Notes: generated by a model not told the origin, from the sequence alone. Positions 29,838 to 63,519 are shown, counted from the stretch's first letter. The stretch is 64,000 nucleotides of DNA from Salinivenus iranica (GCA_002894665.1 NCRB01000014.1:1-64000); one strand, 5' to 3'. Numbers and translations are program-made.

Positions 29838-32800
29838 ATGAAGCGTTGGGCTTCGATACCAATTTTACTGCTTGCAGTCCTGGTGCTCTGTCCCAGTTTG
29901 GCTCACGGGCAGGGCGTCACCTCGGCCACCATCCGCGGCACGGTGGTCGATGAAAACGACGAACCCCTTCCGGGCGTGAATGTCCTGGCGGTCCACGAGC
30001 CGAGCGGGTCTCGCTACGGCGCGTCTACCAGCCAGCGAGGGCAATTCACCCTGGCCAACGTGCGGGTCGGCGGCCCCTACACGATCACCGTCTCGTTCGT
30101 CGGCTACCAGTCGCAGCGCGAGACGAACGTCGAGCTCGACCTTGGCGAGACTCGCACCTTCGAGTTTCAGCTCCAGCCTCAGACCCAGGAGCTTGATGAG
30201 GTTGAGGTGGTTGCTGAAGGACAGGGCGCGGTCTTCAGCAGTCAGCGCCGAGGCATCTCCACGAACATCTCGGAGGAGGACATCCAGAACGCGCCGACCA
30301 TCGACCGGTCCATTGCGGACTTCGCGCGGTTCACGCCGCAGGCCATCGTCGGAAACGACGACGACGACGGCTCCTCCATCTCGATCGCCGGGCAGAACAA
30401 CCGGTACAACTCCGTTTTCATCGACGGGGCGGTGAGCAACGACGTGTTTGGCCTGTCGGCGCAGGGCACCGACGGCGGACAGACCGGTGCCACGCCGATT
30501 AGCACCGATGCCATCCAGAGTTTCAACATCGAGATCTCACCGTACGACGTAACGCAGAGCTACTTCGGCGGCGGGGCGATCAACGCTGTGACGCGGAGCG
30601 GCTCGAACCAGTTCGAGGGGTCGCTTGCCTTTGAGTACCGCGACCAGAGCTTCGCGGAGGACCTGCCGAATGCCCCGTTCCCGGACTTCACGAATGAGCG
30701 CTACGTGGGACGCCTCGGCGGTCCCATTATCGAGGATGAGCTCTTCTTCTTCGTCAACTTCGACATCAACCGGGAGACCTCGCCCCAGCCGTTTGAGGGC
30801 GGATTCGATGAGTTCGAAGGGCAGGCCATCCAGTCCGAGTCGGACTTGAACGACCTCCTGAGCTTTGTCGAAAGCACGGTGGGGGATCGGTACGACCCCG
30901 GGAGTTTTCAGGGCAATGCCACCTCGTTGGATAGCGACAAGTTCTTGGGCAAGCTCGACTGGAATATCAGCCAGAATCACCGGGCGAGCCTTCGGTACAG
31001 CTACTCCGAGTCGGTCAACGTCGACGCGTTTGGCGGAAATCCGCAGGAGATCTCGTTCTCCAGCCGAAACGAGGTGTTTCCGAATACCACTCAGATCGGT
31101 GCGTTTGAGCTGAATAGCTCGTTCGGCAACAACTTTGCCAACAAGCTGATTCTCAGCTACAAAAACGTGGAGGACGACCGGGACACGAACCTCGACCAGC
31201 CGTTCCCGACCGTCGACATTAACGACGGAGCCGCCAGCATCGGCCTCGGGGGCGAGCCGTTCTCGACGGTGAACTTCCTCAAGCAGGAGGTCTTCACCCT
31301 CACGAACGACTTTGATATGTTCTTTGGGGACCACACCGTCACGGTCGGGACGCACAACGAGCTCTACGATCTCGCAAACAAGTTCGTCCCGTTCAACTAC
31401 GGATGGTACATTTTCGTGGACAACGACGGCAACGGGACGGCCGTCGACGAATTCCGCGAGACCGTATGCGCGTCGATCGACAACCCCGGCAGCGCCTGTC
31501 AGGGGGTTGATTCGGGGATTGCCAACTCGGTCTTCGCCCGCGGCTTTTCGCTCGTAGACGACGATCCGAGTACGCCGAATACGTTTGAGGAGAAAATCGG
31601 CGATGCGACGAACGCACAGGGCGCGTTCCGTGCGCTCAACACCAGCCTCTACATTCAGGACGAGTGGACGGTAAGCGACCGTCTGACGCTGACGGGAGGC
31701 GTTCGAGTCGACGTGCCGGTATACCTCGACGATCCGGCGTTTGCGAACCCGGACAACGAGCTGGTGCCGAACGATCCGGAGCTCGATCCCCGGGACACTA
31801 CAATCCCGGCCATCCGGAACTTTTACTCGATGAACGGGGCACGGCCCGGCGAAACGCCGGACCCGAACCTGCACTGGGCGCCCCGCTTTGGCTTTAACTG
31901 GGACGCCTTCGGCGACGAGACCACACAGGTGCGCGGAGGCACCGGCATCTTTACGAGCCGGCAGCCCTTCGTGTGGCCCGGTGGAATGTACCTCAACAAC
32001 GGGACGAACACCGGGACGGTCGACTTTACATTCGGCCAGGCCGAGTTCCGTCCGAACCCGCAGAACGGCCTGACGGTGGCCGACTTCCAGGACCGCGATC
32101 CGTCGGACCTAATTCCGAGCGGTCGCCTCGAGATGTTCGAGAAGGACTACTACAATCCGCGGTTCTGGCGCTCCTCTCTGGGTATCGATCAGGAGCTTCC
32201 GGGCGGTGTGATTGGCACAATCGAGGCTCAGTACTCGAACACGCTGAAGAACGTGCTGGTCACGAACGTCAACCTGCGCCCGGCGAACGAGACGCTGGAC
32301 GGCCCGGACAATCGGCCCATCTGGGTGCCCTCGGAGTTCGACGATGGGGCGAGTCCCTACGCCGAATCCGGGGATCAGCGGATTGATGCTCGCTACGCGA
32401 ACATCCACCGTGTGGGCAATACCGATCGCGGCTACTCCTACAACCTCACGACCCGCCTCCGGAAGACGTTCGAGGGCATCGTGACGGAAAACAGTGGCCT
32501 CCGCGCCGATGTGTCCTACACGTACGGCGATTCCTACTCGGTGAACGACGGGCTCTCGTCGCAGGTCAACTCGCTCTGGGACGGCGTCGAGCACGTCAAC
32601 GGCGCGAACAACATCGGGCTGGCCCGCTCGGACTTCTCGACGGGGCACCGCGTGCTTGGTCGGTTCTCCTACCGCCAGCAGCTCGGCGACCGGTTCGCCC
32701 TCACGACGACATTGATCTACGATGGGCAGTCCGGTCGGCCGTTCTCCTACGTCATCGACAACAGCGAGAATATGGTTCGGGAGCGAGGGGAAGCAAACTC

Positions 32801-33365
32801 GCTGCTCTACGTTCCGGGACAGACCCAGAATCTGACCTTTGGGGAAATTGACCCGGACGACGGACCGACGATTACTCCTGAGCTGCAGGCGCAAGCCCTG
32901 GATCAGTTCATCCGCGGCAACGACTACCTGAGCGATCGCCGCGGACAGTACGCGGAGCGCAACGGCGACCGGACGCCCTGGGAGAGCGTCTTCGACCTCA
33001 ACCTCCGCCTGGAGGTTTTCCAGAACCTCCTCGGGCGGCAGCAGAGCCTGGAGCTGACGGCGAACGTGTTCAACTTCTCCAGCCTCCTGGGCGACGTGTT
33101 CGGGACGGACTGGGGCGAGCGGTACGCCGGAGCTGGGCAGGTTGACCTCACCTCCTTCCGCGAGTTCGAGGATCCGGACAACGGAAACTACACGCCGGTG
33201 TACACGGCCCAGGAGGTCATTCGCTCGGTTGAAGACACCAACGGCGATGGGGTCGCCGACGAAGTAGAGACGATCGATCAGGAGGACATCTTCAATGAGA
33301 TCCGAACCGGGTCCTCCTACAGTTCCCAGTGGCAGATGAAGTTTGGCGTCCGCCTCAACTTCTAA
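29838..33365 (+). CDS. Oar-like TonB-dependent outer-membrane receptor 1
   Basis: Large outer-membrane barrel, 1175 residues. Seen: signal peptide to about residue 25 (LAHGQG); a carboxypeptidase-regulatory-like beta-sandwich (TIRGTVVDENDEPLPGVNV to about residue 110); a TonB plug with RYNSVFIDGAV; the Oar-type block VTRSGSNQFEGSLAFEYR; then a long beta-barrel of Asp/Asn-rich strands ending in SQWQMKFGVRLNF with a terminal Phe. The ATG at 29838 opens the signal peptide. Oar-like receptors import unknown substrates or assist surface protein export. It is followed by a terminator at 33397 and by a second receptor 0.8 kb on. Confidence 0.9.
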   Translation: MKRWASIPILLLAVLVLCPSLAHGQGVTSATIRGTVVDENDEPLPGVNVLAVHEPSGSRYGASTSQRGQFTLANVRVGGPYTITVSFVGYQSQRETNVELDLGETRTFEFQLQPQTQELDEVEVVAEGQGAVFSSQRRGISTNISEEDIQNAPTIDRSIADFARFTPQAIVGNDDDDGSSISIAGQNNRYNSVFIDGAVSNDVFGLSAQGTDGGQTGATPISTDAIQSFNIEISPYDVTQSYFGGGAINAVTRSGSNQFEGSLAFEYRDQSFAEDLPNAPFPDFTNERYVGRLGGPIIEDELFFFVNFDINRETSPQPFEGGFDEFEGQAIQSESDLNDLLSFVESTVGDRYDPGSFQGNATSLDSDKFLGKLDWNISQNHRASLRYSYSESVNVDAFGGNPQEISFSSRNEVFPNTTQIGAFELNSSFGNNFANKLILSYKNVEDDRDTNLDQPFPTVDINDGAASIGLGGEPFSTVNFLKQEVFTLTNDFDMFFGDHTVTVGTHNELYDLANKFVPFNYGWYIFVDNDGNGTAVDEFRETVCASIDNPGSACQGVDSGIANSVFARGFSLVDDDPSTPNTFEEKIGDATNAQGAFRALNTSLYIQDEWTVSDRLTLTGGVRVDVPVYLDDPAFANPDNELVPNDPELDPRDTTIPAIRNFYSMNGARPGETPDPNLHWAPRFGFNWDAFGDETTQVRGGTGIFTSRQPFVWPGGMYLNNGTNTGTVDFTFGQAEFRPNPQNGLTVADFQDRDPSDLIPSGRLEMFEKDYYNPRFWRSSLGIDQELPGGVIGTIEAQYSNTLKNVLVTNVNLRPANETLDGPDNRPIWVPSEFDDGASPYAESGDQRIDARYANIHRVGNTDRGYSYNLTTRLRKTFEGIVTENSGLRADVSYTYGDSYSVNDGLSSQVNSLWDGVEHVNGANNIGLARSDFSTGHRVLGRFSYRQQLGDRFALTTTLIYDGQSGRPFSYVIDNSENMVRERGEANSLLYVPGQTQNLTFGEIDPDDGPTITPELQAQALDQFIRGNDYLSDRRGQYAERNGDRTPWESVFDLNLRLEVFQNLLGRQQSLELTANVFNFSSLLGDVFGTDWGERYAGAGQVDLTSFREFEDPDNGNYTPVYTAQEVIRSVEDTNGDGVADEVETIDQEDIFNEIRTGSSYSSQWQMKFGVRLNF

Positions 33366-33396
33366 CGGTTCGGCCGAAGGGACCCATCACTGCGAG

Positions 33397-33427
33397 CGGG
33401 CGGTCGTCGACGGACGGCCGCCCGTTT
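33397..33427 (+). terminator. Terminator after receptor 1
   Basis: Stem CGGGCGGTCGTC paired with GACGGCCGCCCG (one G-T pair), tight loop, followed by TTTCG. It should end the receptor 1 transcript. Confidence 0.7.
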
Positions 33428-33599
33428 CGTATTTGTGCTACCGTTCCGTATCTCTTTTCCTTCTGGGGTTTTAGTACGAATGGCATCGAGTGCGATAGCC
33501 TCGTTCTCTCGGTTTTGTCCTTGTGTTCTTTCTCTTTGCCGCGGGAAGCCTCCCCGGGCACGCCCGGCCCGTCGATAGCGCCCGTTTTGTGCACGTCGG

Positions 33600-33877
33600 A
33601 ACGGTCCCGCCCCCCCGATCGACAAGGTGAGCGGGATCGGAAAAAGCCCGCAGCTCGGCAACGCCGCTGCAGCGCTGGGGGCGGCCATGGTTTGCACGAC
33701 GGGCGTCGGGGGCTGTCCCCGGTCGGAGAAGGGCGACGGGTGGCGCTTGACGGAGCCCCGGGCCATCAAACGGCCAGAGTTGCGCCCCAAGCAGCCGGGG
33801 CGGTGACTTGGGACGACCCGCAGACGCACCGCATTATAAACGAGAACCGCAACGTATTTCTGTTAGAAAACATTCGC
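33600..33877 (+). pseudogene. Internally deleted relic of the propeller-like secreted protein gene
   Basis: Two stretches match the intact gene at 44632-45612. Positions 33612-33662 match 44762-44812 (GATCGACNAAxTGAGCGGGATC and AAAAGCCCGCAG blocks), and positions 33688-33877 match about 45400-45575 (TGCACGAC, CGGAGAAGGGCGAC, GGAGCCCCGGGCCATC, GGGACGA-CC-CAGACGC). The about 590 bp between these in the intact gene is missing, and the reading frame is broken. It is the remains of a duplicated or displaced copy. Confidence 0.82.
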
Positions 33878-33889
33878 GGACAGCGGTAG

Positions 33890-34128
33890 TCGGTGAGAGA
33901 TTCAGGGAGACGGTCGTTATCACAGTGTTATGGTTGCTGGAGAAGGGATAGCAAATCGGTTCTTCATTGATGATAAGGACTCTCACTTGTACTCTATGTA
34001 TCGGCCTACGCTTGTTGCCGTACGCCCACGGCCTCTCCGACTACTTTACCGGGCGCAGGTGCGGGTAGGATCTGCGCCACCGGCCGCTCCTCTCACGTTA
34101 ACCGATCCAATCGACCATGGACACCGCT
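33890..34128. other. AT-rich control region of receptor 2
   Basis: Between the relic and the second receptor gene lies a 240 bp stretch, AT-richer than its surroundings from 33905 to 34005, with GTTATGGTT and TTGTACTCTATGTAT as possible promoter parts. The exact promoter cannot be fixed by eye. No gene is seen. Confidence 0.35.
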
Positions 34129-37100
34129 ATGTCACGCTGGTCACTTTTCCTCCTCGCCGCGACTGTCCTGTTGGGGGTGCCCCTGGGGACGGTGCAGGCC
34201 CAGGGGACCACGGCCTCCATCACCGGCACCGTCATCGATGCGGAGAATGAAGAACCGCTGCCGGGGGTGAACGTCGTGGCGGTCCACGAACCGACCGGTA
34301 CGGAGTACGGCACCGCGACCAATCCACGGGGCCGGTTCACCATCCGCGGGATGCGGGTCGGCGGACCGTACACGATCACGGCCTCGTTCGTGGGGTACCA
34401 GACCACCCGGCGCGAGGGCATTCAATTGCAGCTTGACGAGACCCGCGAGATCGAATTTACGCTCCAGCAGCAGACGGCTGAGATGGAGGAGGTCGAAGTC
34501 ATTGGGCAGCGGTCCGGCGCTGTCATTGACAAGGACCGGACGGGGGCTGCAACCAACGTGTCGTCGCAGGAAATCGACGAACTCCCGACGATTGGGCGGA
34601 GCCTGACCGACTTCACGCGCCTCGTCCCGCAGGCACAGGGCGATGGGAGCCTGGGAGGGGCGAATAGTCGGTACAACAGCATTCAGATTGACGGGGCGAC
34701 GCTCGACGATGTATTTGGCCTCGGGGATGCGGTGCCGGGCAGCCAGGCCGGGGCCGAGCCCATTAGTTTGGACGCCATCCAGGAGTTCAACATCAACATT
34801 TCGCCCTACGACGTGACGTCGAGCGGCTTCACCGGGGGGCAGGTCAACGCGATCACAAAAAGCGGAAGCAACGAGTTCGAGGGGACGCTCCGGTTTAAGG
34901 GAGGGACGGAAGACTTTACCGGGGACCTCGACGGAGTAGGCACGGGGGAGTTCAATCAGGCCTTCTACACCGGAACGCTGGGCGGGCCCATCATTCAGGA
35001 TGAGCTGTTCTTCTTCGTCTCCGCCGAGCTGAAGCGAGAGAGCTCTCCGCTCGATACGCGGGTGGGAGCAGACCTGGACGGGACCAACATTTTCCGAGAG
35101 CCGGTCTCGACCGTCGAAGAAGTCCAGAACATCTTCCGAGACGAGAATGGCCTGTACAACTATGACCCGGGCGGCTTCTCGCCGCTCACCCAGCGGGAGG
35201 ACAACGAGAAGCTGCTGGTGAAGCTTGACTGGAATATCAACGATAGTCACCGGCTGACGGTCCGCAACAATTACGTAAACGCAGGCGACGACGCGGGCAT
35301 CACGCGCGATCCCGACGATTATAGCTTTGCCAATCGGCAGTACGTCTTCGAGAGCCTTCAGAACTCGGCGACGGCGACGCTGAACAGCACGATCGGCGAC
35401 AACATGTTCAACGAGGCCCGCTTCGTGTACACCCGGATTCGGGATGAGCGAAACGTGCAGGATGCGGCCTTCCCGGAGATGGAGGTCACGCTGGGCGGCG
35501 GCCGGGCGCTCTTCGCCGGGATCGGGCGGTTCAACCAGGCCAACCAGTTGAACCAGGACCTCTACGAGTTCACCGACAACTTCACGTATGAGCTCGGCGA
35601 CCACTCGCTGACCGTGGGGACGAGCAACAAGCTTTACGAGTTCTCCAACCTGTTCATTCAGGACTTCTTCGGCTCGTACACGTTCAACTCGTTCGAAACC
35701 CCGGCGGGCGACGAGGTGTCGGTCCAGCAGGCCCTTCAGAATGGGCAGCCGACCCAGTATCTGTACAGCTATCCCACGGCCGCCGCTGGCACGGACGCCC
35801 CGAGGGCAGAATTTTCGGCCTTCCAGTTCGGCGGGTACGTCCAAGACGAGTGGCAGGCCCTCCCGTCGCTGAAGTTGACCCTCGGCCTGCGCGTAGACGT
35901 GCCCGTTCTGCCCGACGAGCCTACCTTCAACCCGACGGCCTTTGAGGCCTACGGGAAGAGCACCCGCGACGTGGCAAGCGGAAACCCCCTCTGGTCGCCC
36001 CGTCTCGGGTTCAACTACGACCAGGACCTGCTCGCCGACGGGCTGTCCACACAGATTCGCGGCGGCATCGGCGTTTTCAGCGGCGATCCGCCGTACGTCT
36101 GGGTCTCCAACCAGTACAGCAACACGGGGGCCGACCTGAACCGCCTCGCCGCCGGGTTTAGCGGCATTGACTACACGCAGAACCCCGAGGCGTGCCGCAA
36201 TTCCGATGACCCGGCCAACGACCCCGCCTGCGAGTACGACCCCGGCCAGAACTTCATTCCGGACCGCGAGGGCGGCATCTCGCAGGACCCGCAGGAGCAG
36301 CCGCTTCCAGCGAACGCCGCGTTCTGTCAGGAAAATCCGGGAAGCCAGCGCTGCAGCGATCTTCTGGAGCCGGAGCAGACGACGGAGGTCAACCTGATTG
36401 AGGACGACTTCAAGTACCCGCAAACCTTTCGGACCAACATCGCCATCGACCAGGAGATGCCGCTTGGGTTCGTGGCGACGCTGGAGGGCATTTACTCGAA
36501 CTCGCTCAACGATGTGACCTTCCGGGACCTCAACCTGGAGCAGGTCGGCGAGTCGAAGTACGGACGGCCCCTGTACGACGGCCCTGTGTCCGATCGGTTT
36601 ACCAACGCGATCCAGCTCGAGAATACGAACGAGGGCTACCAGTACAGCCTCACCGGGCAGTTGCAGCGCAACGTCGGAGAAGGAATCGGCGGGTCGCTTT
36701 CCTACACCTACAACCGCGCCACCAACGTAAACAACGGCTCCTCGAGCCGGGCCATCTCTAACTGGACGTATAACGAGAACAAGGATGTGAACAATGCCGG
36801 GGTCGGAACGGCCGACTATGAGATCCGCCACCGCATCCTCGGCACACTGAACTACACGCTCAATTACGGCGAGCGTTACGCGACGACCATTGGGATCGTC
36901 TACGAGGGCCGGTCGGGCGAACCGTTCAGTTGGATCTACGACGGCAACGCCAACGGCGACACCGGCGACGGCGCCGCCGAAAACGACCTGGTGTACGTGC
37001 CGGAGAACCGTTCGGACATCTTCCTGGAGAGTGAAAACTGGGATCTGATGAATGCCTTCATTGAGGGGAACGACGCCCTCGACGACGCCCGCGGGTCGGT

Positions 37101-37482
37101 GATTGACCGAAATACCGCCCGGGCCCCCTGGCAAAACATTCTGGACCTTCACCTGGCCCAGTCCTTCCGCACCTTTGAGGGCCAACAGCTTCGCCTGACG
37201 CTCGATGTGGTGAACGTCCTCAATCTCCTTGACGACAGTTGGGGCCGCATCCAAAACACGAGCTTCAACAACATCCAGGCCTGGAGCTTTGAAGGGTACG
37301 TGTCGGAGGAGGACGTAGGGACCGAGGTGAACGGCCGCATCGTCAGCCAGGACGACGTTGGCAAGCCGCGTGTGAGCTTCGACGAGGAAACGGTGCGGGA
37401 TCGTCTGAACGGAGAGCAGTTCTTCGTGCAGGACATTCCCTCCCGTTGGCGCCTGCGCCTGGGCGTAAAGTACACCTTTTAA
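34129..37482 (+). CDS. Oar-like TonB-dependent outer-membrane receptor 2
   Basis: A paralogue of receptor 1, 1117 residues. Seen: signal peptide to about residue 25 (TVQAQG); carboxypeptidase-regulatory domain (SITGTVIDAENEEPLPGVNV, residues about 28-105); plug with RYNSIQIDGATLDDVFGLGD; ITKSGSNEFEGTLRFKG; long barrel; final SRWRLRLGVKYTF with terminal Phe. ATG at 34129 matches the start of receptor 1 by alignment; ATG at 34117 is 4 codons earlier. The shared N-terminal blocks show that the two arose by duplication, but the barrels have diverged, so their ligands may differ. Confidence 0.9.
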   Translation: MSRWSLFLLAATVLLGVPLGTVQAQGTTASITGTVIDAENEEPLPGVNVVAVHEPTGTEYGTATNPRGRFTIRGMRVGGPYTITASFVGYQTTRREGIQLQLDETREIEFTLQQQTAEMEEVEVIGQRSGAVIDKDRTGAATNVSSQEIDELPTIGRSLTDFTRLVPQAQGDGSLGGANSRYNSIQIDGATLDDVFGLGDAVPGSQAGAEPISLDAIQEFNINISPYDVTSSGFTGGQVNAITKSGSNEFEGTLRFKGGTEDFTGDLDGVGTGEFNQAFYTGTLGGPIIQDELFFFVSAELKRESSPLDTRVGADLDGTNIFREPVSTVEEVQNIFRDENGLYNYDPGGFSPLTQREDNEKLLVKLDWNINDSHRLTVRNNYVNAGDDAGITRDPDDYSFANRQYVFESLQNSATATLNSTIGDNMFNEARFVYTRIRDERNVQDAAFPEMEVTLGGGRALFAGIGRFNQANQLNQDLYEFTDNFTYELGDHSLTVGTSNKLYEFSNLFIQDFFGSYTFNSFETPAGDEVSVQQALQNGQPTQYLYSYPTAAAGTDAPRAEFSAFQFGGYVQDEWQALPSLKLTLGLRVDVPVLPDEPTFNPTAFEAYGKSTRDVASGNPLWSPRLGFNYDQDLLADGLSTQIRGGIGVFSGDPPYVWVSNQYSNTGADLNRLAAGFSGIDYTQNPEACRNSDDPANDPACEYDPGQNFIPDREGGISQDPQEQPLPANAAFCQENPGSQRCSDLLEPEQTTEVNLIEDDFKYPQTFRTNIAIDQEMPLGFVATLEGIYSNSLNDVTFRDLNLEQVGESKYGRPLYDGPVSDRFTNAIQLENTNEGYQYSLTGQLQRNVGEGIGGSLSYTYNRATNVNNGSSSRAISNWTYNENKDVNNAGVGTADYEIRHRILGTLNYTLNYGERYATTIGIVYEGRSGEPFSWIYDGNANGDTGDGAAENDLVYVPENRSDIFLESENWDLMNAFIEGNDALDDARGSVIDRNTARAPWQNILDLHLAQSFRTFEGQQLRLTLDVVNVLNLLDDSWGRIQNTSFNNIQAWSFEGYVSEEDVGTEVNGRIVSQDDVGKPRVSFDEETVRDRLNGEQFFVQDIPSRWRLRLGVKYTF

Positions 37483-37508
37483 CCTGCACCCGTCCCGCGA
37501 AAGGGCAT

Positions 37509-37526
37509 CCGGCCCCTCGGGGCCGG
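37509..37526 (+). terminator. GC-rich hairpin after receptor 2
   Basis: CCGGCCCC-TC-GGGGCCGG is a perfect short hairpin (7 usable pairs with a 4 nt loop), with only a weak TT tail. It may slow transcription before the lipoprotein gene. Confidence 0.45.
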
Positions 37527-37584
37527 TTCGCTGAACGCTGTGTCTGTCCGTTACTTTTCTTCGATAGCTGAGATTGATCGTCCC

Positions 37585-38586
37585 ATGCGTTTTTCCTCCC
37601 CGCTTCGCTACGTAGCGCTGCTGTTCGCTGCCCCCCTCCTCCTCGTCGGCTGCGACGGCTTTGATAGTGGCACGCCGCCCAACGCACCGGGGGACACGGA
37701 GGCGACCGTGTCGTTCGCGACGGAGAACATCTCGATCACCGAGAGTCAGAGTCCCGTGGAGCTGGGCGTGACGCTCAACGGCGCGATTGGGCGCGAGGTG
37801 TCCGCCGAGGTGCTCTACGCCGACGGCGCCAGCAGCACCGATCCGTCGGACTTCAATCTGCAGGACAGCACGGCGGTGGGCAGCGGCGTCGTGGCCGGGC
37901 GGGTCGTGTTTCCGGATACGGCCACCGACGGCAATACGCAGACCCTCTCGCTCGACATCCAGGACGAGGAGGAGAATGAGCCGCAGGAAAATGGGCTCTT
38001 TGTGCTCCAGAACGTGCAGGGGGCGTCGATAGGGGAGGCCAACCAGCTCACAGTGTCGATTGGAGCCGTCGAGATCTTTGCGAAGGACTTTTCGGACGAG
38101 GAGGTGGCCCCGATGACGGTGGCAAACGTCACGAACGGAAACGGCTGGGGGATCGGCAGTGCGTCGGGGGTTCCAAACGCTCCCTTTGCCGCTGCGAATG
38201 CCTTCGGGGGGCCGGAAGCCTCGAACAGTTGGCTCATTTCGCCGGCGCTCAACTTCAACGACTTTGAGGGCGAAACGCTCTCCTTCATCAACGCGAAGAA
38301 CTTCGACGACGGCGGGCTCGACCAGCCGCTCCAGGTGAAGGTGTCCACCGACTACGACGGGTCCGGCAATCCGGAAGACTTCACGTGGACGGACGTGACC
38401 GATCGCGTCGAAAACCTCTCACAGGGAGGCTTCGATTTCGTCTCGTCGGGGGACATCGACCTCTCGGACAGCCAGTTCCAGGCCGATGAGGTATACGTCG
38501 CGTTCCAGTATCGATCGAGCGGAACGGGCGGTGGCTCCTCGGAGGCCCAGCAGGTCGACAACATTCGAGTTGTGGGACGCCCGTAA
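37585..38586 (+). CDS. Surface lipoprotein with Calx-beta-like and choice-of-anchor-J-like domains
   Basis: A 333-residue lipoprotein: lipobox LLVGC with C23. Then a beta-sandwich with the Calx-beta look (ATVSFATENISITESQSPVELGVTL), about residues 35-150, and a C-terminal jelly-roll-like domain with WLISPALNFNDFEGETLSFINAKNF and VAFQYRSSGT, the pattern of cleaved-adhesin/choice-of-anchor-J domains. The C-terminal half is nearly repeated in the next gene. It probably sits on the outer membrane and binds a polymer for the adjoining receptors. Confidence 0.82.
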   Translation: MRFSSPLRYVALLFAAPLLLVGCDGFDSGTPPNAPGDTEATVSFATENISITESQSPVELGVTLNGAIGREVSAEVLYADGASSTDPSDFNLQDSTAVGSGVVAGRVVFPDTATDGNTQTLSLDIQDEEENEPQENGLFVLQNVQGASIGEANQLTVSIGAVEIFAKDFSDEEVAPMTVANVTNGNGWGIGSASGVPNAPFAAANAFGGPEASNSWLISPALNFNDFEGETLSFINAKNFDDGGLDQPLQVKVSTDYDGSGNPEDFTWTDVTDRVENLSQGGFDFVSSGDIDLSDSQFQADEVYVAFQYRSSGTGGGSSEAQQVDNIRVVGRP

Positions 38587-38592
38587 GCAATC

Positions 38593-38624
38593 GGGGCAGC
38601 CGCGGGGGCTCCCCCGCTCGCCCC
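38593..38624 (+). terminator. Hairpin after lipoprotein 1
   Basis: Nested stem GGGGC...GCGGGGG-CT-CCCCCGC...GCCCC. No T-run follows, so it may be a weak terminator or stability element. Confidence 0.45.
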
Positions 38625-38674
38625 AAGATCGCCCATCACATTGCCCCGTTCTCACTGATTAGGCACAACGATTT

Positions 38675-40249
38675 ATGCGACGCTTCCTGAATGCGCTCCT
38701 TCCTGTTCTCGTGATCGGTCTCGTCCTCGCCGGGTGTGATAGTGGAGGTGGCACCCCAGACAATCTTGGCGAAAATACGACGGTGGAGCTGGAGACGACG
38801 AGCGATGTCGTGAGCGAGACGGACGGGAGCTACACCGTCAACCTCGTCGCTATGGATCCCGGGTTTAAGGAGTTCAGTCTCGACGTATCGGTCGATGCGT
38901 CCCAGAGCACGGCTGTGGCGGACGAGGACTTCGTGGGCCTGCCGACGGATACGACGATCACGTTCCCGGAGTCGACCACGAATGAGGGGCGCCAACTGCT
39001 CTCGTTCGACATCGTGGACGAGCCCATCGACAGCACGGGATTTCTGGAAGAGGAGGAGACGCTGGTGCTCACCCTGACAGCCGCCGACACGTCGGACGTG
39101 TCCGTGGGTGAGAACGACACCTTCACCCTTACGGTGGAGGAGGATGATGAGCCGCTCACGACCCAGGAAGCGCGCGACCGGCCGACCGGAGGCCGAGCCG
39201 TGGTGGACGGCACTGTGACCCGAGTCGACGGGGATGGGGCGTACGTGCAGGATAGTGAGGGAGCCCTCTATGTCTTCGACGGGGACTTTTCTGGGCAGGT
39301 CGGCGACGAGGTGCGCGTCGACGGCTCCACGGGCTTCTTCAGTGGGCTCTTTCAGCTGCAGGACGTGACCGAAGGGCCTCTCACGGAAGTGTTCTCGTCG
39401 GGCAACGAGCTTCCGTCCCCGCCGGTCGTGTCCCTCGCCGAGGTCACCGACAACGGCGAGGAGTACGAGAGCGAGCTCATTCGCGTCGAAAACTTTGCGA
39501 TCGACGACGGCGGCGACCAGCAGTTCCAGGCCGGCACGAACTACACGATCAGCAACACCTCCGGCGAGTCGACCCTCCGCATCCCGGGCGGATCCGAACT
39601 CGTGGGCGAAGACATCCCGGAGGGGGCGAACTTCCAGGGGGTGCTCGGGCAGTTTAACAACTTTGGCGACCCGGACGAAAACACGGGATACCAGCTGTTG
39701 GGACTGGAAACGGGAGATCTCGAGCCTGTCGCGACCCTCGCGTCGGTTGACTTCTCGGACGACCAGCTGGCGCCGATGACGTCCGTCAGCGTGGCGAGCG
39801 ACGAGGACTGGGGAACGAGCAGCGAGGGCGATCCCCCCAACGCTCCCTACGCGGTCATGAGCGGGTTCGGGGCCAATGAGCCGTCGAACGATTGGCTCAT
39901 TTCGCCGGCCCTCGACTTCACGACGGTCGAAAATGAGACGCTCCGCTTCATCAACGCGAAAGGGTTCGACGACACTGGGCGCCGCGGCCTCCAGGTAAAG
40001 GTCTCGACCGACTACGACGGGTCCGGCAATCCGGAGAACTTCACGTGGACCGATGTGTCGGACCAGGTGAACTTCTCCGAGGGAGACTTCAATTTCGTCG
40101 ACTCGGGCAAGGTCAACCTGTCCGGCTCTGAGTTCCAGGACACGGAGGTGTACGTCGCCTTCCAGTACCGCTCCAGCGGGACATCGGGGGGACAGGCGGC
40201 AGACTGGCAGGTCGACAACATTGTCGTGAGCGGCCAGCCCGCAAACTGA
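38675..40249 (+). CDS. Surface lipoprotein with Calx-beta-like, OB-fold-like and anchor-J-like domains
   Basis: A 524-residue lipoprotein: lipobox LAGC with C21. Domains in order: Calx-beta-like (about 30-165; YTVNLVAMDP, DTFTLTVEEDDE); an OB-fold-like nucleic-acid-type module (about 170-360; VVDGTVTRVDGDGAYVQD, NFQGVLGQFNNFGD); and a choice-of-anchor-J-like domain (about 365-524) very close to that of the preceding gene. The OB-like module also occurs twice in the next gene, a secreted nuclease. It is a good candidate for the surface partner of the nuclease and receptors. Confidence 0.82.
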   Translation: MRRFLNALLPVLVIGLVLAGCDSGGGTPDNLGENTTVELETTSDVVSETDGSYTVNLVAMDPGFKEFSLDVSVDASQSTAVADEDFVGLPTDTTITFPESTTNEGRQLLSFDIVDEPIDSTGFLEEEETLVLTLTAADTSDVSVGENDTFTLTVEEDDEPLTTQEARDRPTGGRAVVDGTVTRVDGDGAYVQDSEGALYVFDGDFSGQVGDEVRVDGSTGFFSGLFQLQDVTEGPLTEVFSSGNELPSPPVVSLAEVTDNGEEYESELIRVENFAIDDGGDQQFQAGTNYTISNTSGESTLRIPGGSELVGEDIPEGANFQGVLGQFNNFGDPDENTGYQLLGLETGDLEPVATLASVDFSDDQLAPMTSVSVASDEDWGTSSEGDPPNAPYAVMSGFGANEPSNDWLISPALDFTTVENETLRFINAKGFDDTGRRGLQVKVSTDYDGSGNPENFTWTDVSDQVNFSEGDFNFVDSGKVNLSGSEFQDTEVYVAFQYRSSGTSGGQAADWQVDNIVVSGQPAN

Positions 40250-40277
40250 CCGGCTGAGGAAACCCTGAAGAGAGAAT

Positions 40278-40305
40278 GGGGGCGGTCGGTAGGACCGTCC
40301 CCTTT
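40278..40305 (+). terminator. Terminator after lipoprotein 2
   Basis: Ten-pair stem GGGG-G-CGGTC with GACCG-T-CCCC, 5 nt loop, then TTTCTCT. It precedes the nuclease gene, which would need its own promoter or read-through. Confidence 0.7.
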
Positions 40306-40395
40306 CTCTATCTCTCGCTGGAGTGGGGAGAAAGGGGGGAGACGTCCGGCGGCGTTGTCCACACACGCGCATCTTTCATATCGCACAGCTCCGTG

Positions 40396-43300
40396 ATGAT
40401 GCACTCGTTACGTTGGCGGCTCGTCGGTCTCGTGGTGTTGGTCGTGGCCATTGCGGCCACCCCCGCGCAGGCGCAACAGGACATCAGCGCGGCGCGCGAC
40501 GAACCGCTCGGGACGGAGGTCACGGTGGAGGGCACGGTGACGCGTGCGTATGGGGCCTACGCCCGCATCCAGGACGAAAGCGGGCCCACCGGCGCCAGTG
40601 CACTTGTTATTCGGCAAACCGATGGGGCGAACAGCACAGCCTTTCAGGACGCGATTGAGGCGGGCGAGATCCAGCCCGGCACGACCCTGGAGGTGACAGG
40701 ATCGACCTCGGCCTTCAACGGCCTCATACAGATCAACAATGACGATCTCACCGACTTCACGGTGCAAGAGCAGGGCGAACCGCCGAGCCCGCAGTCGGTG
40801 ACCCTTACGGAGCTAGCGCAGAATGGGGAAGACTACGAGAGCGAGCTTTTGCGGGTGGAAGGACTCCGATTCCTGAGTGCATCGGGCACCTTTGAGAACG
40901 GGACGACCTACACGGTCGAAGACGGCGACGGGCAGACGGGGGAGTTTCGGGTGCAGAACACTGATGAAACGGCCATCGGGGGGGCGTCCATTCCCGGGAG
41001 CGTGTTTGCCTTCGAAGGGGTGCTGGGCCAGTTCAACGGAGCGGGGCCGGGAGGCGATGAGCCCGACGACGGATATCAGTTGATACCCGTCCGCGAGAGC
41101 GATCTGCAGTCGTCTCTCTCGTTCTCGTTCAATCGTACGTTTGCGCAGGTGGAGGAAGGCGACCCGGCTGTGTCGGTGCAGGTGCGGGTTTTCAACAAGG
41201 AGACAGACGGAGAGGTCTCGGTGATGGCGGCGGTGGGGGCGGAAAGTACCGCCGAGAATGGCGTCGACGTTTCTGGATTTCAGAGTCCGAAGACGCTCAC
41301 GTTCTCCGGCACCGATCCGGCACCGCAGACGCTAACCCTGGAGCCGGTGGATGATAGCGAGCAGGAGGGGGTCGAACGGCTGGAGGTGGTGCTCTCCTCG
41401 GACGACGGGCCCATCTCCTCGCCCAACCGCTTCACACTCTGGATTGCCGACAGTCCGGCGGCGCAGGCCCCGATCCTGGCGGGTGACAGCAGCGAGGTCC
41501 TCCTCGATTCGCTCCGGCAGCGGTACGGAAATCCGCCGACGCTCGGGTACGACACGGCCCGCGATTCGCTCTATCAGAGCATCCTCAACGACCAGGGGAC
41601 GGTCGAGACGATCTACGGCGGATTTCAGGCCAGTGCCGATCCGGACGGGGACGCGACGGCCCAGCTGCTCGATCAGGACGTGAACACCGAGCATCTGTGG
41701 CCCCGCAGCAAGGGAGCGGAGCAGGAGCCGGCCCTCAGCAACATGTACATCCTTGCGCCGACGTGGTCGGACGCCAACAGCTACCGGTGCAACTATCCGT
41801 TCGCCGAGATTGACGACCCCGACGCCGAGCGCTGGATTCGGGAGAAAACAGTGCAGTCGGAGGAGCCCACGACAGAGAAAGAGACGTACACCGAATCGGT
41901 GGGCAATGCGTGCGGCAGCCCGAGCGACAATGGGGAATTCGAGCCGCGCCACAGCAAGAAGGGGGACGTGGCCCGGGCGGCGTTTTACTTTGCCATGGCG
42001 TATCCGAACCGGGCGGATCTGTCCTTTCTGGAGGCTCAGCGCGAGACGCTCCTCGAGTGGCATCGAGAGGACCCGGTCGATGCGACCGAGCTGCGGCGCA
42101 GCCTCGTCAAGGCCACCTACCAGGGCAATCGGGTAAATCCCTTTATCCTCGACTCCACGCTTGCGAAGCGGGCCTATGGGGCAGGCGTGCCGGGGCCCGG
42201 CGTGGTGGCCATCCAGGAGGCGCGTGAACAAGGCGCCGGTCAGACGGTGACTGTGGAGGGAGTGGTGACCCGCGTGGGGCCGGAAGGGCCGTATCTGCAG
42301 GACGACACCGGCGCACTGTACGTATTCGAGACCAGCGGGTCGTTTGGGCAGAACCTTGGGGGCGTCATCCGAAAGGGCACGCGACTGCAGGTCACCGGGT
42401 CGCTTGAGTATTACAATGGCCTCCTGGAATTGACGAATGTCCCGGAGGACGGGTATGAGGTGCTGTCGCAGGACAATGCACTTCCTGCGAGGGCTACGCT
42501 TACGCTCGAAGACATTGCCCAGTCGGGGGAGACATACGAGTCGCAGCTTGTGGAGGTCGAGGACTTCGCGATTGAGGCGGATGGGGACGAGACCTTTCAG
42601 GCGGGCGGCAGCGCCGGAAATTACACCATTGAGGACGGAACGGGCAGCCTCACCCTTCGCATTCCCACCGACTCCGAACTCGAAGGCGAGCCCATTCCGG
42701 ACCGGGCCACCTTTCGAGGCGTGCTTGGCCAGTTCAACAATGCGGGGGCGGGGGCGGACGAGCCGGATGAAGGGTACCAGCTTCTTGGATTGGACACCGG
42801 CGACCTGGAGGCGGAGCTGCCGGGAGAGACGACCGTCGACGTCACCCGCTCCTTTGGCGACCCGAGCACGGGGGACAGCTACCGGCTCGTGGCCCTGCCC
42901 GGCCAGGTCGATCGGGCCCTCGCCTCGACCCTCTCTGAGGAGGCGGGCGTTGGGTGGCAGGCGTACTGGGACGACGGGAGCGAGCAGGACTTCCTGGTCA
43001 AGTTCGACGGAAGCGACCAGTTCAACTTCCGGCCGGGCCGCGGCTTTTGGCTTCTGAACACGGGCGACTGGTCCGTGAGCGACACGTTCAGCACGGTGGA
43101 GGTAGCGGACGGGGAAACGACGATTCCGCTCCACGACGGGTGGAATATTGTCTCCAACCCGCTCCCGGTCGACGTACCCTGGGCGGACGTGGAGGCGGCG
43201 AATGGGGGCTCCCTGCAGGCGCTGTGGGCCTGGGGCGCCGGCGGGTTTGAGACGGCGTCCACGTTTGCCACGGCCGCCAGCGGCGAGGCGTTCTATTTCC

Positions 43301-44115
43301 TGAACGACCAGGGCCTGGAGCAACTTACGATCCCCGTTCCCGCCCAGACCTCGGAGAACACGCGCACGTCGACGGCGGCGCCTGCGTCCCGTGCGGTCAC
43401 GCTCCGGGCGTCCCGGGGCGAGGCCGCGGCCACGGTTCGCGTAGAGGAGCGCCCGGACGCCCAGGCGGAGCGTGATCGCTACGACTGGGTGGCCCCGCCG
43501 ACCCGGTTCTCGTCCCTGTCGCTGCACAGTCGCCCCGCCTCCGCCGACGATCAGCCGGGGCGCCAGCAGGCGCTCGCCCGCGACGTGCGGGCCGGCGGCG
43601 CGGACGGACACACCTACCCCCTCACCCTCCGCTCGGACACGGCGGGGGCCGTCACGCTTCGGGCCGACGACCTGCCGCGCACGGGAGAGGTGGTTCTCCT
43701 TGACAGTGCCGGCACGCGCTACGACCTTCGACAGCAGCAGGCCGTGTCCGTCTCGGCGGGCCCCCACCCGACCCACTTCCGGCTGTTGGTCGGTGAGTCG
43801 TCGTATGTCGAGTCCGAGGTGGCCGAGCAACTGCCCGATCAGCTCTCGGTGGAGCCCCCGCAGCCGAACCCGTTCCGCGAGCGTGTGACGCTCCAGTACA
43901 CGCTTCCCTCCACGCAGGAGGTGCGGGTGTCGGTGTACGACGTGCTGGGCCGCCAGGTACAGACGCTCGTCGATGCCCGGCAGGAGGCGGGGCCGCACCG
44001 CACGACATGGGACGGGGTGGACCAGAGCGGCGGCACGCTTGCCAGTGGGGTCTACTTCGTCCGGTGGACCACCGGAGGGACCCAGCACACCGAGAGGGTG
44101 CTGCTCGTTCGGTGA
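40396..44115 (+). CDS. Secreted multidomain endonuclease I with OB-fold modules and type IX sorting domain
   Basis: A 1239-residue exported nuclease. Order: signal peptide (to ATPAQAQ, about 27); OB-fold-like module 1 (28-235); beta-sandwich with Calx-beta look (236-355); endonuclease I/NucM-like domain (about 363-595) with the His-Me-finger block NTEHLWPRSKG (E432, H433), FEPRHSKKGDVARAAFYF (H519) and NRVNPFILDSTLAKRAY; OB-fold-like module 2 (about 605-810); unknown beta-rich part; and a C-terminal sorting domain from residue 1156 (QPNPFRERVTLQYTLP, VRVSVYDVLGRQVQTL, SGVYFVRWT). Start: ATG 40396 in GTG-ATG-ATG. Such sorting domains send proteins out by the T9SS. It should cut extracellular DNA or RNA. 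Confidence 0.88.
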   Translation: MMHSLRWRLVGLVVLVVAIAATPAQAQQDISAARDEPLGTEVTVEGTVTRAYGAYARIQDESGPTGASALVIRQTDGANSTAFQDAIEAGEIQPGTTLEVTGSTSAFNGLIQINNDDLTDFTVQEQGEPPSPQSVTLTELAQNGEDYESELLRVEGLRFLSASGTFENGTTYTVEDGDGQTGEFRVQNTDETAIGGASIPGSVFAFEGVLGQFNGAGPGGDEPDDGYQLIPVRESDLQSSLSFSFNRTFAQVEEGDPAVSVQVRVFNKETDGEVSVMAAVGAESTAENGVDVSGFQSPKTLTFSGTDPAPQTLTLEPVDDSEQEGVERLEVVLSSDDGPISSPNRFTLWIADSPAAQAPILAGDSSEVLLDSLRQRYGNPPTLGYDTARDSLYQSILNDQGTVETIYGGFQASADPDGDATAQLLDQDVNTEHLWPRSKGAEQEPALSNMYILAPTWSDANSYRCNYPFAEIDDPDAERWIREKTVQSEEPTTEKETYTESVGNACGSPSDNGEFEPRHSKKGDVARAAFYFAMAYPNRADLSFLEAQRETLLEWHREDPVDATELRRSLVKATYQGNRVNPFILDSTLAKRAYGAGVPGPGVVAIQEAREQGAGQTVTVEGVVTRVGPEGPYLQDDTGALYVFETSGSFGQNLGGVIRKGTRLQVTGSLEYYNGLLELTNVPEDGYEVLSQDNALPARATLTLEDIAQSGETYESQLVEVEDFAIEADGDETFQAGGSAGNYTIEDGTGSLTLRIPTDSELEGEPIPDRATFRGVLGQFNNAGAGADEPDEGYQLLGLDTGDLEAELPGETTVDVTRSFGDPSTGDSYRLVALPGQVDRALASTLSEEAGVGWQAYWDDGSEQDFLVKFDGSDQFNFRPGRGFWLLNTGDWSVSDTFSTVEVADGETTIPLHDGWNIVSNPLPVDVPWADVEAANGGSLQALWAWGAGGFETASTFATAASGEAFYFLNDQGLEQLTIPVPAQTSENTRTSTAAPASRAVTLRASRGEAAATVRVEERPDAQAERDRYDWVAPPTRFSSLSLHSRPASADDQPGRQQALARDVRAGGADGHTYPLTLRSDTAGAVTLRADDLPRTGEVVLLDSAGTRYDLRQQQAVSVSAGPHPTHFRLLVGESSYVESEVAEQLPDQLSVEPPQPNPFRERVTLQYTLPSTQEVRVSVYDVLGRQVQTLVDARQEAGPHRTTWDGVDQSGGTLASGVYFVRWTTGGTQHTERVLLVR

Positions 44116-44157
44116 CAAGATCCTGTTCGTTGTCTCGTTGCACGTGATCGCATTGCC

Positions 44158-44562
44158 ATGCCGTTCTCCGGGTTCACCCGCTGGGTTCGCGGACTGCTTC
44201 TACTTGGGATTGCCCTCCCGCTCGTTGGGTGTAGCGGGGGCGGCGGAGGAAATACGGCGCCCCCGTCGCCCCCCACCAACGTGGAGGCCACGTCGCAGGA
44301 CGGGGCGGTTGCGCTATCGTGGAGCGGCTCCTCGGCGGCCAACGAGTATCGGGTGTACCGGAGCACCCGCTCGACGTCGGGCGTGAGCGGGTCGCCCGTA
44401 AGTGAGGCCCCGCTCACCGAAGCCGCCTTCACCGATGCATCGGTTGAGAATGGAACGCAGTACTACTATCGTGTGACGGCTGTTGGGGAGGGAGGAGAGA
44501 GCGACCCCTCATCGGAAGTTACTGTTCGTCCCTTCCCGACCCCGCCCGAGGAGCGTCCCTAG
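44158..44562 (+). CDS. Lipoprotein with one fibronectin type III domain
   Basis: A 134-residue lipoprotein: lipobox LVGC with C25, a Gly-rich spacer (SGGGGGN), then one FN3 domain (PPTNVEATSQDGAVALSWSG, EYRVYRS, YYYRVTAVGEGGES). It lies 43 bp after the nuclease gene and may be co-transcribed with it. FN3 domains serve as adhesion or spacer units; a surface role is inferred. Confidence 0.8.
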   Translation: MPFSGFTRWVRGLLLLGIALPLVGCSGGGGGNTAPPSPPTNVEATSQDGAVALSWSGSSAANEYRVYRSTRSTSGVSGSPVSEAPLTEAAFTDASVENGTQYYYRVTAVGEGGESDPSSEVTVRPFPTPPEERP

Positions 44563-44631
44563 CCCCCACACTGGGCGACATTGGTCGTTCCTCCGTGGGC
44601 ATCCGTCTCAGTCGATGGTGGTCTGTGTCTC

Positions 44632-45612
44632 ATGATTTCGTTTCGGGTCCTCCGAGTCCTTGTCGCTGGACTGGCTGTGCTGCTGGCCGCGGGGGCATCC
44701 TCTCCCGCCTGGGGCCAGCCCGCCGACCCGCGTCTGCAAAAGGACGGGGAGGCCACTCATCCCCCGATCGACGAAATGAGCGGGATCGTGAAAAGCCCGC
44801 AGTTCGACAACGTCTGGTGGGTGCACAACGACAGCGGCGATTCGCCCCGCCTGTTTGCCATCGACAGCACCGGGGCGGCCCACCTGGCGCCGTGGCGGCG
44901 GGGCACCTACGCGGTCGGCGCGGCACTCGACACGACCGACCGCCCCGCCTGGCCCGGGCTGCACCTTGGGGCCGCCGCCCACATCGACTACGAAGACATG
45001 GCCACTGAGGATAGCACCCTCTACGTCGGCGACATCGGAAACAACGGAAACGCGCGCCGTGACCTTGGCATCTACGTGATTCCGGAGCCCTACTACTACG
45101 CCCGGCGCACCCGGCCGATGATGCACCTCCAGATTCGGTACCCGGACCAGAAGACCTACCCGGCGGAGAAGTGGGACTACGACGCCGAGAGCCTTTTTGT
45201 GGACGACGGCACCCTCTACGTGCTCACCAAGCGGCGAAAGGGCCAGAAAATTAACCAGCTGGACTCGGGGACGACCCTCTACCGGCTGGATACCGAACGC
45301 CTGCACCGCGTCAACACGCTCACGCTCGTGGACCGTCACCCCTCGATCGCTCCGCCTACGGGAGCGGCGCTCAGCCCGAGTGGCGACCGGCTGGCCGTGG
45401 TCTGCACGACCGGGGTCTGGATCTTTTCCCGGCCGGAGAAGGGCGACCAGTGGCTCTCGACGGAGCCCCGGGCCATCGAACTGCCAGAGTCGCGCCTCAA
45501 GCAGGCCGAGGCCGTGAGCTGGGACGATCCCCAGACGCTGCGGATCGTCAACGAAAACCGGGACGTGTTTACGCTTTCGCTCGGCGGGGATCGCGCACCG
45601 GACGCCGAGTGA
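44632..45612 (+). CDS. Secreted protein with predicted beta-propeller-like fold, function unknown
   Basis: A 326-residue protein with a signal peptide ending near SSPAWGQP (about residue 28). The mature part has repeated strands such as NVWWVHNDSGDSPRLFAID, LYVGDIGNNGNARRDLGIYVI, SLFVDDGTLYVLTKRRKG and SWDDPQTLRIVNENRDVF, consistent with a beta-propeller of 6 or so blades. I see no catalytic motif. The start is ATG at 44632. A deleted relic of the same gene lies 11 kb upstream between the two Oar-like receptors. Confidence 0.72.
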   Translation: MISFRVLRVLVAGLAVLLAAGASSPAWGQPADPRLQKDGEATHPPIDEMSGIVKSPQFDNVWWVHNDSGDSPRLFAIDSTGAAHLAPWRRGTYAVGAALDTTDRPAWPGLHLGAAAHIDYEDMATEDSTLYVGDIGNNGNARRDLGIYVIPEPYYYARRTRPMMHLQIRYPDQKTYPAEKWDYDAESLFVDDGTLYVLTKRRKGQKINQLDSGTTLYRLDTERLHRVNTLTLVDRHPSIAPPTGAALSPSGDRLAVVCTTGVWIFSRPEKGDQWLSTEPRAIELPESRLKQAEAVSWDDPQTLRIVNENRDVFTLSLGGDRAPDAE

Positions 45613-55527: not shown

Positions 55528-55776
55528 GGTCGTGAGGATTGCGTGGACAAATCGTGTGCGTGCGGAGCGCCGGAGGCTGCGGGCCACGTGCATTCCCTCG
55601 CGGTCCAGGCGGCAGGGCAATCCGGGCCGTCTCCCCCTCTACGGCCCCCGAAAGGAGGCCTGAGCAACCTATTCACTCCGACACTTGTACGGTGGGACGG
55701 GCAGTCAGTTCTCTTCCGGGCAAAGGGGGCTGTCCATCGTTCGTTCGTGCTCGTCCGTTCTGTTTCCGCGTCACCC

Positions 55777-56331
55777 ATGGCCACCCCCGAATTCGATCCG
55801 GCCCACGTCCGTCGGGCCCAGGAGGGCGATGCCGATGCCCGAAACGACCTCCTGAGCCGTCTGGAGCCCATTCTGCGAGGCTACTTTATCAAGCGGATTG
55901 GGAAAGAAGCCGACGTCGACGATCTGGTGCAGAACACCCTGATGCGGGTGCACGAGGGGCTCGAGGCGCTTGAAAAACCGGGCAGTCTCAAGTCGTTTGC
56001 GATGAAGGCCGCGCTGTTCGAACTGCAGGACTACTACCGCGGGCGATACGACATGAAGGAGCGCCTCTACGACCCGGAGCTGCCCCCGCAGCGCACCACC
56101 GCCCCGGATGACCGCAGCGCGGAGGTGGACGTGGAGAAGGCCCTTGACGTGCTGACGCCCAAGGCGCGCCGCATCATGGAGCTCCGCGAGTACGGATACA
56201 TCTACCGCGAGATTGCGCAGATGCTCGATACAACGGAGGCGGCGGTGAAGATGCAGGTGAAACGCGCCTTCGAAAAGATGCGCGACGCCCTCGGGGTGGT
56301 TCTGGCGCTCCTCTGGGTCGGCGGGCTCTGA
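55777..56331 (+). CDS. ECF sigma factor (FecI-like)
   Basis: A 184-residue extracytoplasmic-function sigma factor. Seen: region 2 (RNDLLSRLEPILRGYFIKRI, ADVDDLVQNTLMRVHEGL) and region 4 (LTPKARRIMELREYGYIYREIAQML, TTEAAVKMQVKRAFEKMR). The ATG at 55777 fits the sigma-family N-terminus; earlier in-frame residues do not. An anti-sigma gene follows 161 bp downstream, then a TonB receptor with an STN domain, the FecI-FecR-FecA order. It should recruit polymerase to the receptor genes when a substrate binds. Confidence 0.92.
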   Translation: MATPEFDPAHVRRAQEGDADARNDLLSRLEPILRGYFIKRIGKEADVDDLVQNTLMRVHEGLEALEKPGSLKSFAMKAALFELQDYYRGRYDMKERLYDPELPPQRTTAPDDRSAEVDVEKALDVLTPKARRIMELREYGYIYREIAQMLDTTEAAVKMQVKRAFEKMRDALGVVLALLWVGGL

Positions 56332-56492
56332 TCGCGCGCCGAAACAGGTGTGTTACCTTTCGTGAGCACTCCGCGGCTTACCCGACAGACACCGCGCACA
56401 GGAGCTGAATTGACATTCGATCACCGCGGCGCGGCCCCCTATTTATCATAGTGGCGGGAGCGCGGGGTTATGGATGCAACAACCGCAGCCTC

Positions 56493-57692: not shown

Positions 57693-57756
57693 GGCTGGCG
57701 GAGGCGGCTCGTCTCTGCCTTCGCGGCCCTCATCGAACAGAGTCCCCGGCTGCGTG

Positions 57757-57771
57757 TAGGACGTTGACCGT
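57757..57771. repeat. Single copy of the 15 bp repeat unit
   Basis: TAGGACGTTGACCGT matches 14 of 15 bases of the unit tandemly repeated at 27331-27360. It ends on the first base of the receptor start codon. Confidence 0.6.
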
Positions 57772-60455: not shown

Positions 60456-60492
60456 GGGCCCGGGCGCCTCTTCTCACAGCAGGGACATCGAT

Positions 60493-63443: not shown

Positions 63444-63519
63444 CGGGTTGGCATCTGCCCCCGGCATCGGCTATCCTATACCGCTCGTCCTCGCTTTCCT
63501 CGCATTCGACGCGTGTCCA

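Follow-up and report, generated by a model that had tools for sequence, protein, structure and literature searches.

The cluster at 29838-45612 raises the question of whether TonB-dependent receptors, surface lipoproteins and a secreted nuclease encoded side by side form one system, and what such a system would take up. The initial annotation of the window (the whole stretch of DNA analysed, 64 kb) proposed that the nuclease makes nucleic-acid fragments, that the lipoproteins capture them and that one or both receptors import them. What that annotation had observed is confirmed: all seven genes are present on the + strand of a 3.4-Mb genome of the genus Salinibacter, in a run of about 16 kb and with the architecture described, lipoprotein 1 excepted. 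Its interpretation is partly supported; it now appears stronger on genomic grounds and is narrowed to receptor 2 and its partners. On balance, the cluster is probably an accessory surface scavenging system for TonB-dependent capture and import of nucleic-acid fragments, used for phosphate or nucleosides.

Gene content and protein architecture

The features of the cluster, including two lying between the receptor genes, are as follows.

29838..33365, + strand: receptor 1, Oar-type TonB-dependent receptor (Pfam CarboxypepD_reg, plug and OMP_b-brl_4, E 3e-46)
33394..33427, + strand: terminator-like hairpin of 15 pairs with a T-rich tail, directly 3' of receptor 1 (pattern scan)
33612..33865, + strand: decayed propeller-like gene remnant between the receptors (blastn to the gene at 44581-45612)
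34117..37482, + strand: receptor 2, Oar-type TonB-dependent receptor (Pfam CarboxypepD_reg and OMP_b-brl_4, E 9e-52)
37540..38586, + strand: lipoprotein 1, with lipobox LLVGC, Calx-beta (below the Pfam cut-off) and choice-of-anchor J/DUF5017 (Pfam, NCBIfam)
38675..40249, + strand: lipoprotein 2, with lipobox LVLAGC, Calx-beta, OB/DUF5689-like module and choice-of-anchor J/DUF5017
40393..44115, + strand: secreted nuclease, with signal peptide, OB, Calx-beta, Endonuclease_1, OB/DUF5689 and a C-terminal T9SS type A sorting domain
44158..44562, + strand: FN3 lipoprotein, with lipobox LPLVGC and Pfam fn3 (E 3e-7)
44581..45612, + strand: secreted propeller-like protein, intact copy, with propeller matches of a low-confidence model

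Both receptors matched CarboxypepD_reg and OMP_b-brl_4 (PF25183), a barrel family that we take to be of Oar type, in agreement with the two large Oar-like receptors described earlier. They fall in separate clades of the receptor tree, and profile searches found some 20 or more TonB receptors in the genome. The gap between the two receptor genes is 751 bp, and the genes from receptor 2 up to the last one are spaced 18-143 bp apart. The hairpin at 33394-33427 suggests that receptor 1 is transcribed separately, at a frequency of hairpin sites in the region that is near chance (15 found vs 11.4 expected); a second terminator-like hairpin from the same scan, with the same near-chance frequency, lies at 40278-40302, 5' of the nuclease. 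The receptor 2 profile gave no match to solved structures. A SusCD classification was considered and rejected: receptor 1 scored 68.9 bits with TIGR04056 against a cut-off of 368, receptor 2 gave no match, and no SusD match was found in the cluster.

OB-like and anchor-J domains had been assigned to both lipoproteins, which holds for lipoprotein 2, whereas lipoprotein 1 lacks the OB module and has anchor J together with Calx-beta. The predicted structure of lipoprotein 2 has an N-terminal Calx-beta domain (Z ~14) and a MAM/jelly-roll anchor-J domain (Z 17), and the structure search returned Calx-beta and MAM/anchor-J matches throughout. Assignment of its further module to the OB fold is a prediction from sequence comparison. 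The module is 49% identical to the second OB of the nuclease and 37% to the first; among 17 copies of the module, 13 matched DUF5689, seven the nucleic-acid-binding OB family PF01336 and two the BOF OB family, and a module profile against the PDB gave only sub-threshold matches (an Exo/endo/phosphatase protein and RPA2). A module common to lipoprotein 2 and the nuclease would point to nucleic acid. Three OB modules are present in the lipoprotein 2 of relative G003. Two further orthologs of lipoprotein 2 (L034:7707-10136 and L035:9011-11341) have extra OB modules and no anchor-J match, indicating that module number shifts fast between species.

The nuclease was described earlier as a secreted endonuclease I with two OB-like modules and a T9SS domain, all of which were recovered by Pfam and NCBIfam. 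Its Endonuclease_1 domain (PF04231) matched at E 1e-19, with 71.5 bits against a curated cut-off of 25, and the C-terminal OB/DUF5689 module at E 1e-10; it is the sole PF04231 gene of the genome. The sorting domain (TIGR04183) scored 36.2 bits against a cut-off of 23 and the T9SS marker SprA is present in the genome, so that the protein is a predicted type A cargo of this system. An NTEHxxPxS ... N ... RxNY motif, which we take to be the known Glu-His-Asn site of endonuclease I, is invariant in the alignment of nine orthologs. Their profile matched the solved endonuclease I structures 1oup, 2pu3 and 2g7e, in best alignments that span the motif region incompletely; phmmer with the endonuclease domain alone gave no match to solved structures. 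Cutting of DNA and RNA is the activity of the endonuclease I family. The OB-like module also gave a weak partial match to the ExeM/NucH model.

Pfam fn3 and the lipobox agree with the FN3 lipoprotein of the initial annotation. The last gene gave no Pfam match, and its all-beta model (pLDDT 54) has propeller matches too weak to name a family, a distant one being the siderophore-binding lipoprotein XusB. The remnant between the receptors matches this gene at 80% over 178 bp and 87% over 52 bp by blastn. The same remnant is found in G001 and an intact propeller gene occupies that place in G003 and G006; thus, receptor 1, propeller and receptor 2 probably stood in this order in the ancestor.

Elsewhere in the window, a Porin_O_P outer-membrane protein (phosphate-selective porin family) is encoded at 13711-14949, followed by a ferric-reductase-like protein at 15045-16370. 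An ECF sigma factor, a FecR anti-sigma protein, a CarboxypepD_reg TonB receptor and a DUF4249 protein stand consecutively at 55543-61482, which we read as a sigma/anti-sigma-controlled uptake locus. At the window end, the purine nucleoside phosphorylase noticed earlier is confirmed (PF01048, E 2e-17, from 63430 to the end) and, as stated then, unlinked to the cluster. Only the start of this gene is contained in 63430-64000, being cut by the window end; its product could use imported nucleosides.

Conserved order and the receptor 2 clade

Conservation of order in relatives had been named as a check on the earlier proposal. The order receptor 2, lipoprotein 1, lipoprotein 2, nuclease, FN3 is kept in G001, G003, G006 and G015; G016 and G018 have it too, an OB lipoprotein replacing lipoprotein 1, which makes six relatives; in G005 it is kept over the part of the cluster that its contig holds. 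The FN3 gene lies directly 3' of the nuclease in all seven of these genomes. The nuclease of G001 is 97% identical, and the order exceeds chance, since it is kept in relatives whose receptor 2 and nuclease have 43-75% protein identity. A receptor 1-type gene stands upstream of receptor 2 in G001, G003, G006, G012 and G016, and 3' of the FN3 gene in G018.

Among genomes of the genus, G004, G007, G010 and G011 lack the endonuclease. The last three are near-complete Salinibacter genomes without a receptor 2 ortholog (best match ~500 bits vs ~2180), and searches of them gave no strong lipoprotein match and no nuclease. Receptor 2, the lipoproteins, the nuclease and FN3 therefore form an accessory unit, whose order persists in six relatives and which several Salinibacter species have lost as a whole. 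The cluster is present in about half of the near-complete Salinibacter genomes.

A phylum search found receptor 2 orthologs (~1300 bits) in Rhodothermus-like and Balneolaceae-like genomes, labels that we assigned from kinship labels and genome traits, and relatives with lower scores in further classes. The Balneolaceae-like genomes encode a nucleotide pyrophosphatase/phosphodiesterase (PF01663, E 1e-94 to 1e-99) 3' of the receptor, and a Cys in a lipobox-like place gives these linked enzymes the look of lipoproteins. This enzyme family has other phosphodiesters among its substrates as well. Members of other classes encode a T9SS protein that combines DUF5689 with Exo_endo_phos (PF03372), directly 3' of the receptor or, in one family, 2-4 kb upstream.

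A census looked for a same-strand EEP nuclease or nucleotide pyrophosphatase no more than ~4 kb away and found one at 24/34 receptor 2-like loci vs 4/27 lower-scoring Oar loci (Fisher p ~1e-5, shared ancestry ignored), where receptor 2-like means at least 730 bits, a threshold picked after the scores were seen, and where the enzyme profiles were built from sequences found in this analysis, so that distant enzymes may be missed in both groups. In a tree of 80 receptors, receptor 2 falls in a clade of 47 with support 100. Linkage to one of three unrelated phosphodiester-cleaving enzyme families was found for 34 of the 47 rows of this clade and for two of 22 outside it, the latter count excluding receptor 1-type rows as well as second receptors from the same loci. 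The three families are endonuclease I, as here, T9SS nucleases with DUF5689/OB and Exo_endo_phos, and nucleotide pyrophosphatase lipoproteins. Such an enzyme was missing from the census neighbourhood of three receptor 2 orthologs of Rhodothermus type and of several further members of the clade. Receptor 2 is thus placed by sequence within a clade recurrently tied to phosphodiester-cleaving enzymes, and has a predicted nuclease of its own in the same gene run.

Proposed nucleic-acid import and its alternatives

The earlier chain of nuclease, lipoproteins and receptor stands in two respects. A nucleic-acid or nucleotide substrate, and a unit made of receptor 2, the lipoproteins and the nuclease, are supported by synteny, joint presence and absence, clade linkage and Riemerella-type homology. 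It does not extend in the same way to receptor 1, which belongs to a different clade. In the proposed mechanism, the T9SS would put the OB-armed endonuclease I at or near the cell surface, as its sorting domain predicts, where it would cut DNA or RNA according to its family. The two lipoproteins, one with the nuclease-type OB module, may then retain the polynucleotide, or fragments of it, at receptor 2, and this TonB-powered receptor would move oligonucleotides or nucleotides into the periplasm, as its family and neighbours suggest. The imported material could serve as a phosphate, nitrogen or nucleoside source. A second receptor set, made up of receptor 1 and the propeller protein and more loosely linked, may handle a related ligand. 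To our knowledge, no TonB receptor for polynucleotides has been established. In Vibrio cholerae, the endonuclease I-family enzyme Dns is needed, together with Xds, if DNA is to serve as phosphate source (PMC3212620), and saltern communities including Salinibacter grow on DNA as phosphorus source, a result for the community and not for Salinibacter alone (PMC8443641).

The lipoproteins bring in a different possibility by way of Riemerella. A transposon screen of the duck pathogen R. anatipestifer found RA0C_RS04920 and RA0C_RS04915 to be essential for natural transformation (PMC8459023). The former is a DUF5689 + DUF5017 protein with choice-of-anchor J and the latter a CarboxypepD_reg outer-membrane protein; the two form a predicted operon and are reported to have no homology to known uptake machinery. 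Their homologs adjoin each other in the majority of Flavobacteriaceae, and in F. columnare a DUF5017 gene separates them (PMC8459023). Our phylum search with lipoprotein 2 yielded 17 loci (L088-L104) with a DUF5689/DUF5017-type lipoprotein. Most belong to one family, presumably Flavobacteriaceae, and a receptor of one family adjoins the lipoprotein in 17/17. A divergent Exo_endo_phos_3 nuclease stands beside the pair in 10/17, a neighbour unmentioned in the accessible part of PMC8459023. A profile of the flavobacterial lipoproteins matched only lipoproteins 1 and 2 in this genome (E ~1e-30); among five genomes searched, it hit the same cluster in G003 and G015 and gave no match in G011 and G028, both without the cluster. 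Lipoproteins 1 and 2 are homologous to this family, with an hhalign match of 99.8% that lies chiefly in the anchor-J domain and the latter half of the OB module. For the receptors, the corresponding profile, built from the flavobacterial homologs and not from the RA0C sequence, did not have receptors 1 and 2 among the matches listed and matched other TonB receptors here at the N-terminus only. Direct orthology of receptor 2 to the flavobacterial receptor was set aside on this result, indicating that the flavobacterial and local receptors are different subfamilies. A literature search, covering few subscription papers, found no description of the cluster, and no paper other than PMC8459023 that names DUF5689.

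The main rival reading, which we regard as unlikely, is that the cluster is the outer-membrane part of natural transformation, the lipoproteins binding DNA, receptor 2 passing it, ComEC importing one strand, and the nuclease trimming DNA or removing the excess. The Riemerella genes and the similar gene order in F. columnare speak for it, as do the exclusive match of the lipoprotein profile, the lower transformation of two of three tonB-type Riemerella mutants (PMC8383284) and the presence of ComEC in this genome. Yet ComEC is found in all near-complete Salinibacter genomes and the cluster in about half of them, receptor 2 is no particularly close relative of the flavobacterial receptor family, and a secreted non-specific nuclease would destroy transforming DNA; nutrition also fits better with relatives of receptor 2 that are tied to nucleotide pyrophosphatases. 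Control by phosphate starvation in analogy to Riemerella was considered and dropped, as removing phosphate lowers transformation there (PMC8383284).

Somewhat less probable still is a stand-alone secreted DNase, acting on biofilm or brine eDNA, in competition or on viscosity, next to receptors and lipoproteins that import an iron or cobalamin complex, a peptide or a glycan. With so many TonB receptors in the genome neighbours can be accidental, and anchor J/MAM folds and propellers are generic binding folds, XusB being among the distant propeller matches. Against such an accident stand the conserved order, the joint loss, the common OB module and the recurrent linkage of the receptor 2 clade to nucleases and phosphodiesterases. 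Export by receptor 2 (or 1) in the manner of Myxococcus Oar, helping to place the nuclease on the surface, seems very improbable: Oar is required for PopC protease secretion (PMC6434023) and the receptors here have the OMP_b-brl_4 barrel that we link to the Oar type, but the nuclease has its own T9SS sorting domain in a genome with SprA, and the pyrophosphatases beside receptor 2 elsewhere look like lipoproteins, for which an exporter is unneeded.

Uptake of nucleic-acid pieces as nutrients thus remains the preferred reading. A wider idea is put forward tentatively, as possible rather than probable: an Oar-type receptor clade in several classes of the phylum may carry poly- or oligonucleotides over the outer membrane with no need of a pilus, its DNA-holding partners being DUF5689/anchor-J lipoproteins. 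Related surface parts would then serve for scavenging here and for transformation in Riemerella. DNA uptake and feeding in Bacteroidota are poorly known, and the Riemerella-type lipoprotein family is now tied to nucleases and to a distinct receptor clade. The operon named here is testable, in a genus that has cultured isolates and lives in brines in which DNA has been documented as a source of phosphorus. If the reading is true, a receptor for pieces of nucleic acid would become known, and genomes could be used to predict which bacteria feed on DNA.

Comparison with known systems

Vibrio Dns/Xds and the ExeM/NucH nucleases resemble the cluster in the endonuclease I catalytic domain, and the OB-like module is weakly ExeM/NucH-like. 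The cluster nuclease differs from them in being T9SS-sorted and in having two OB modules and a Calx-beta domain, and no linked TonB receptor with lipoproteins was found described in the accessible parts of the sources on those systems. The SusCD PULs of Bacteroidota likewise combine a TonB receptor, surface lipoproteins and a secreted depolymerase per locus, whereas the lipoproteins here are anchor-J/OB proteins and SusD is unmatched. Myxococcus xanthus Oar is comparable as an Oar-type TonB receptor, assigned here from the barrel family, and differs in having been shown in protein secretion (PMC6434023). With the Riemerella pair the cluster has in common a DUF5689 + DUF5017/anchor J surface protein adjoining a CarboxypepD_reg outer-membrane receptor, and the F. 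columnare order with its extra DUF5017 gene corresponds to receptor, lipoprotein 1, lipoprotein 2 here. Unlike that pair, the cluster has a receptor with the Oar-type barrel (PF25183) and a same-direction T9SS endonuclease I; the function shown for the pair is transformation.
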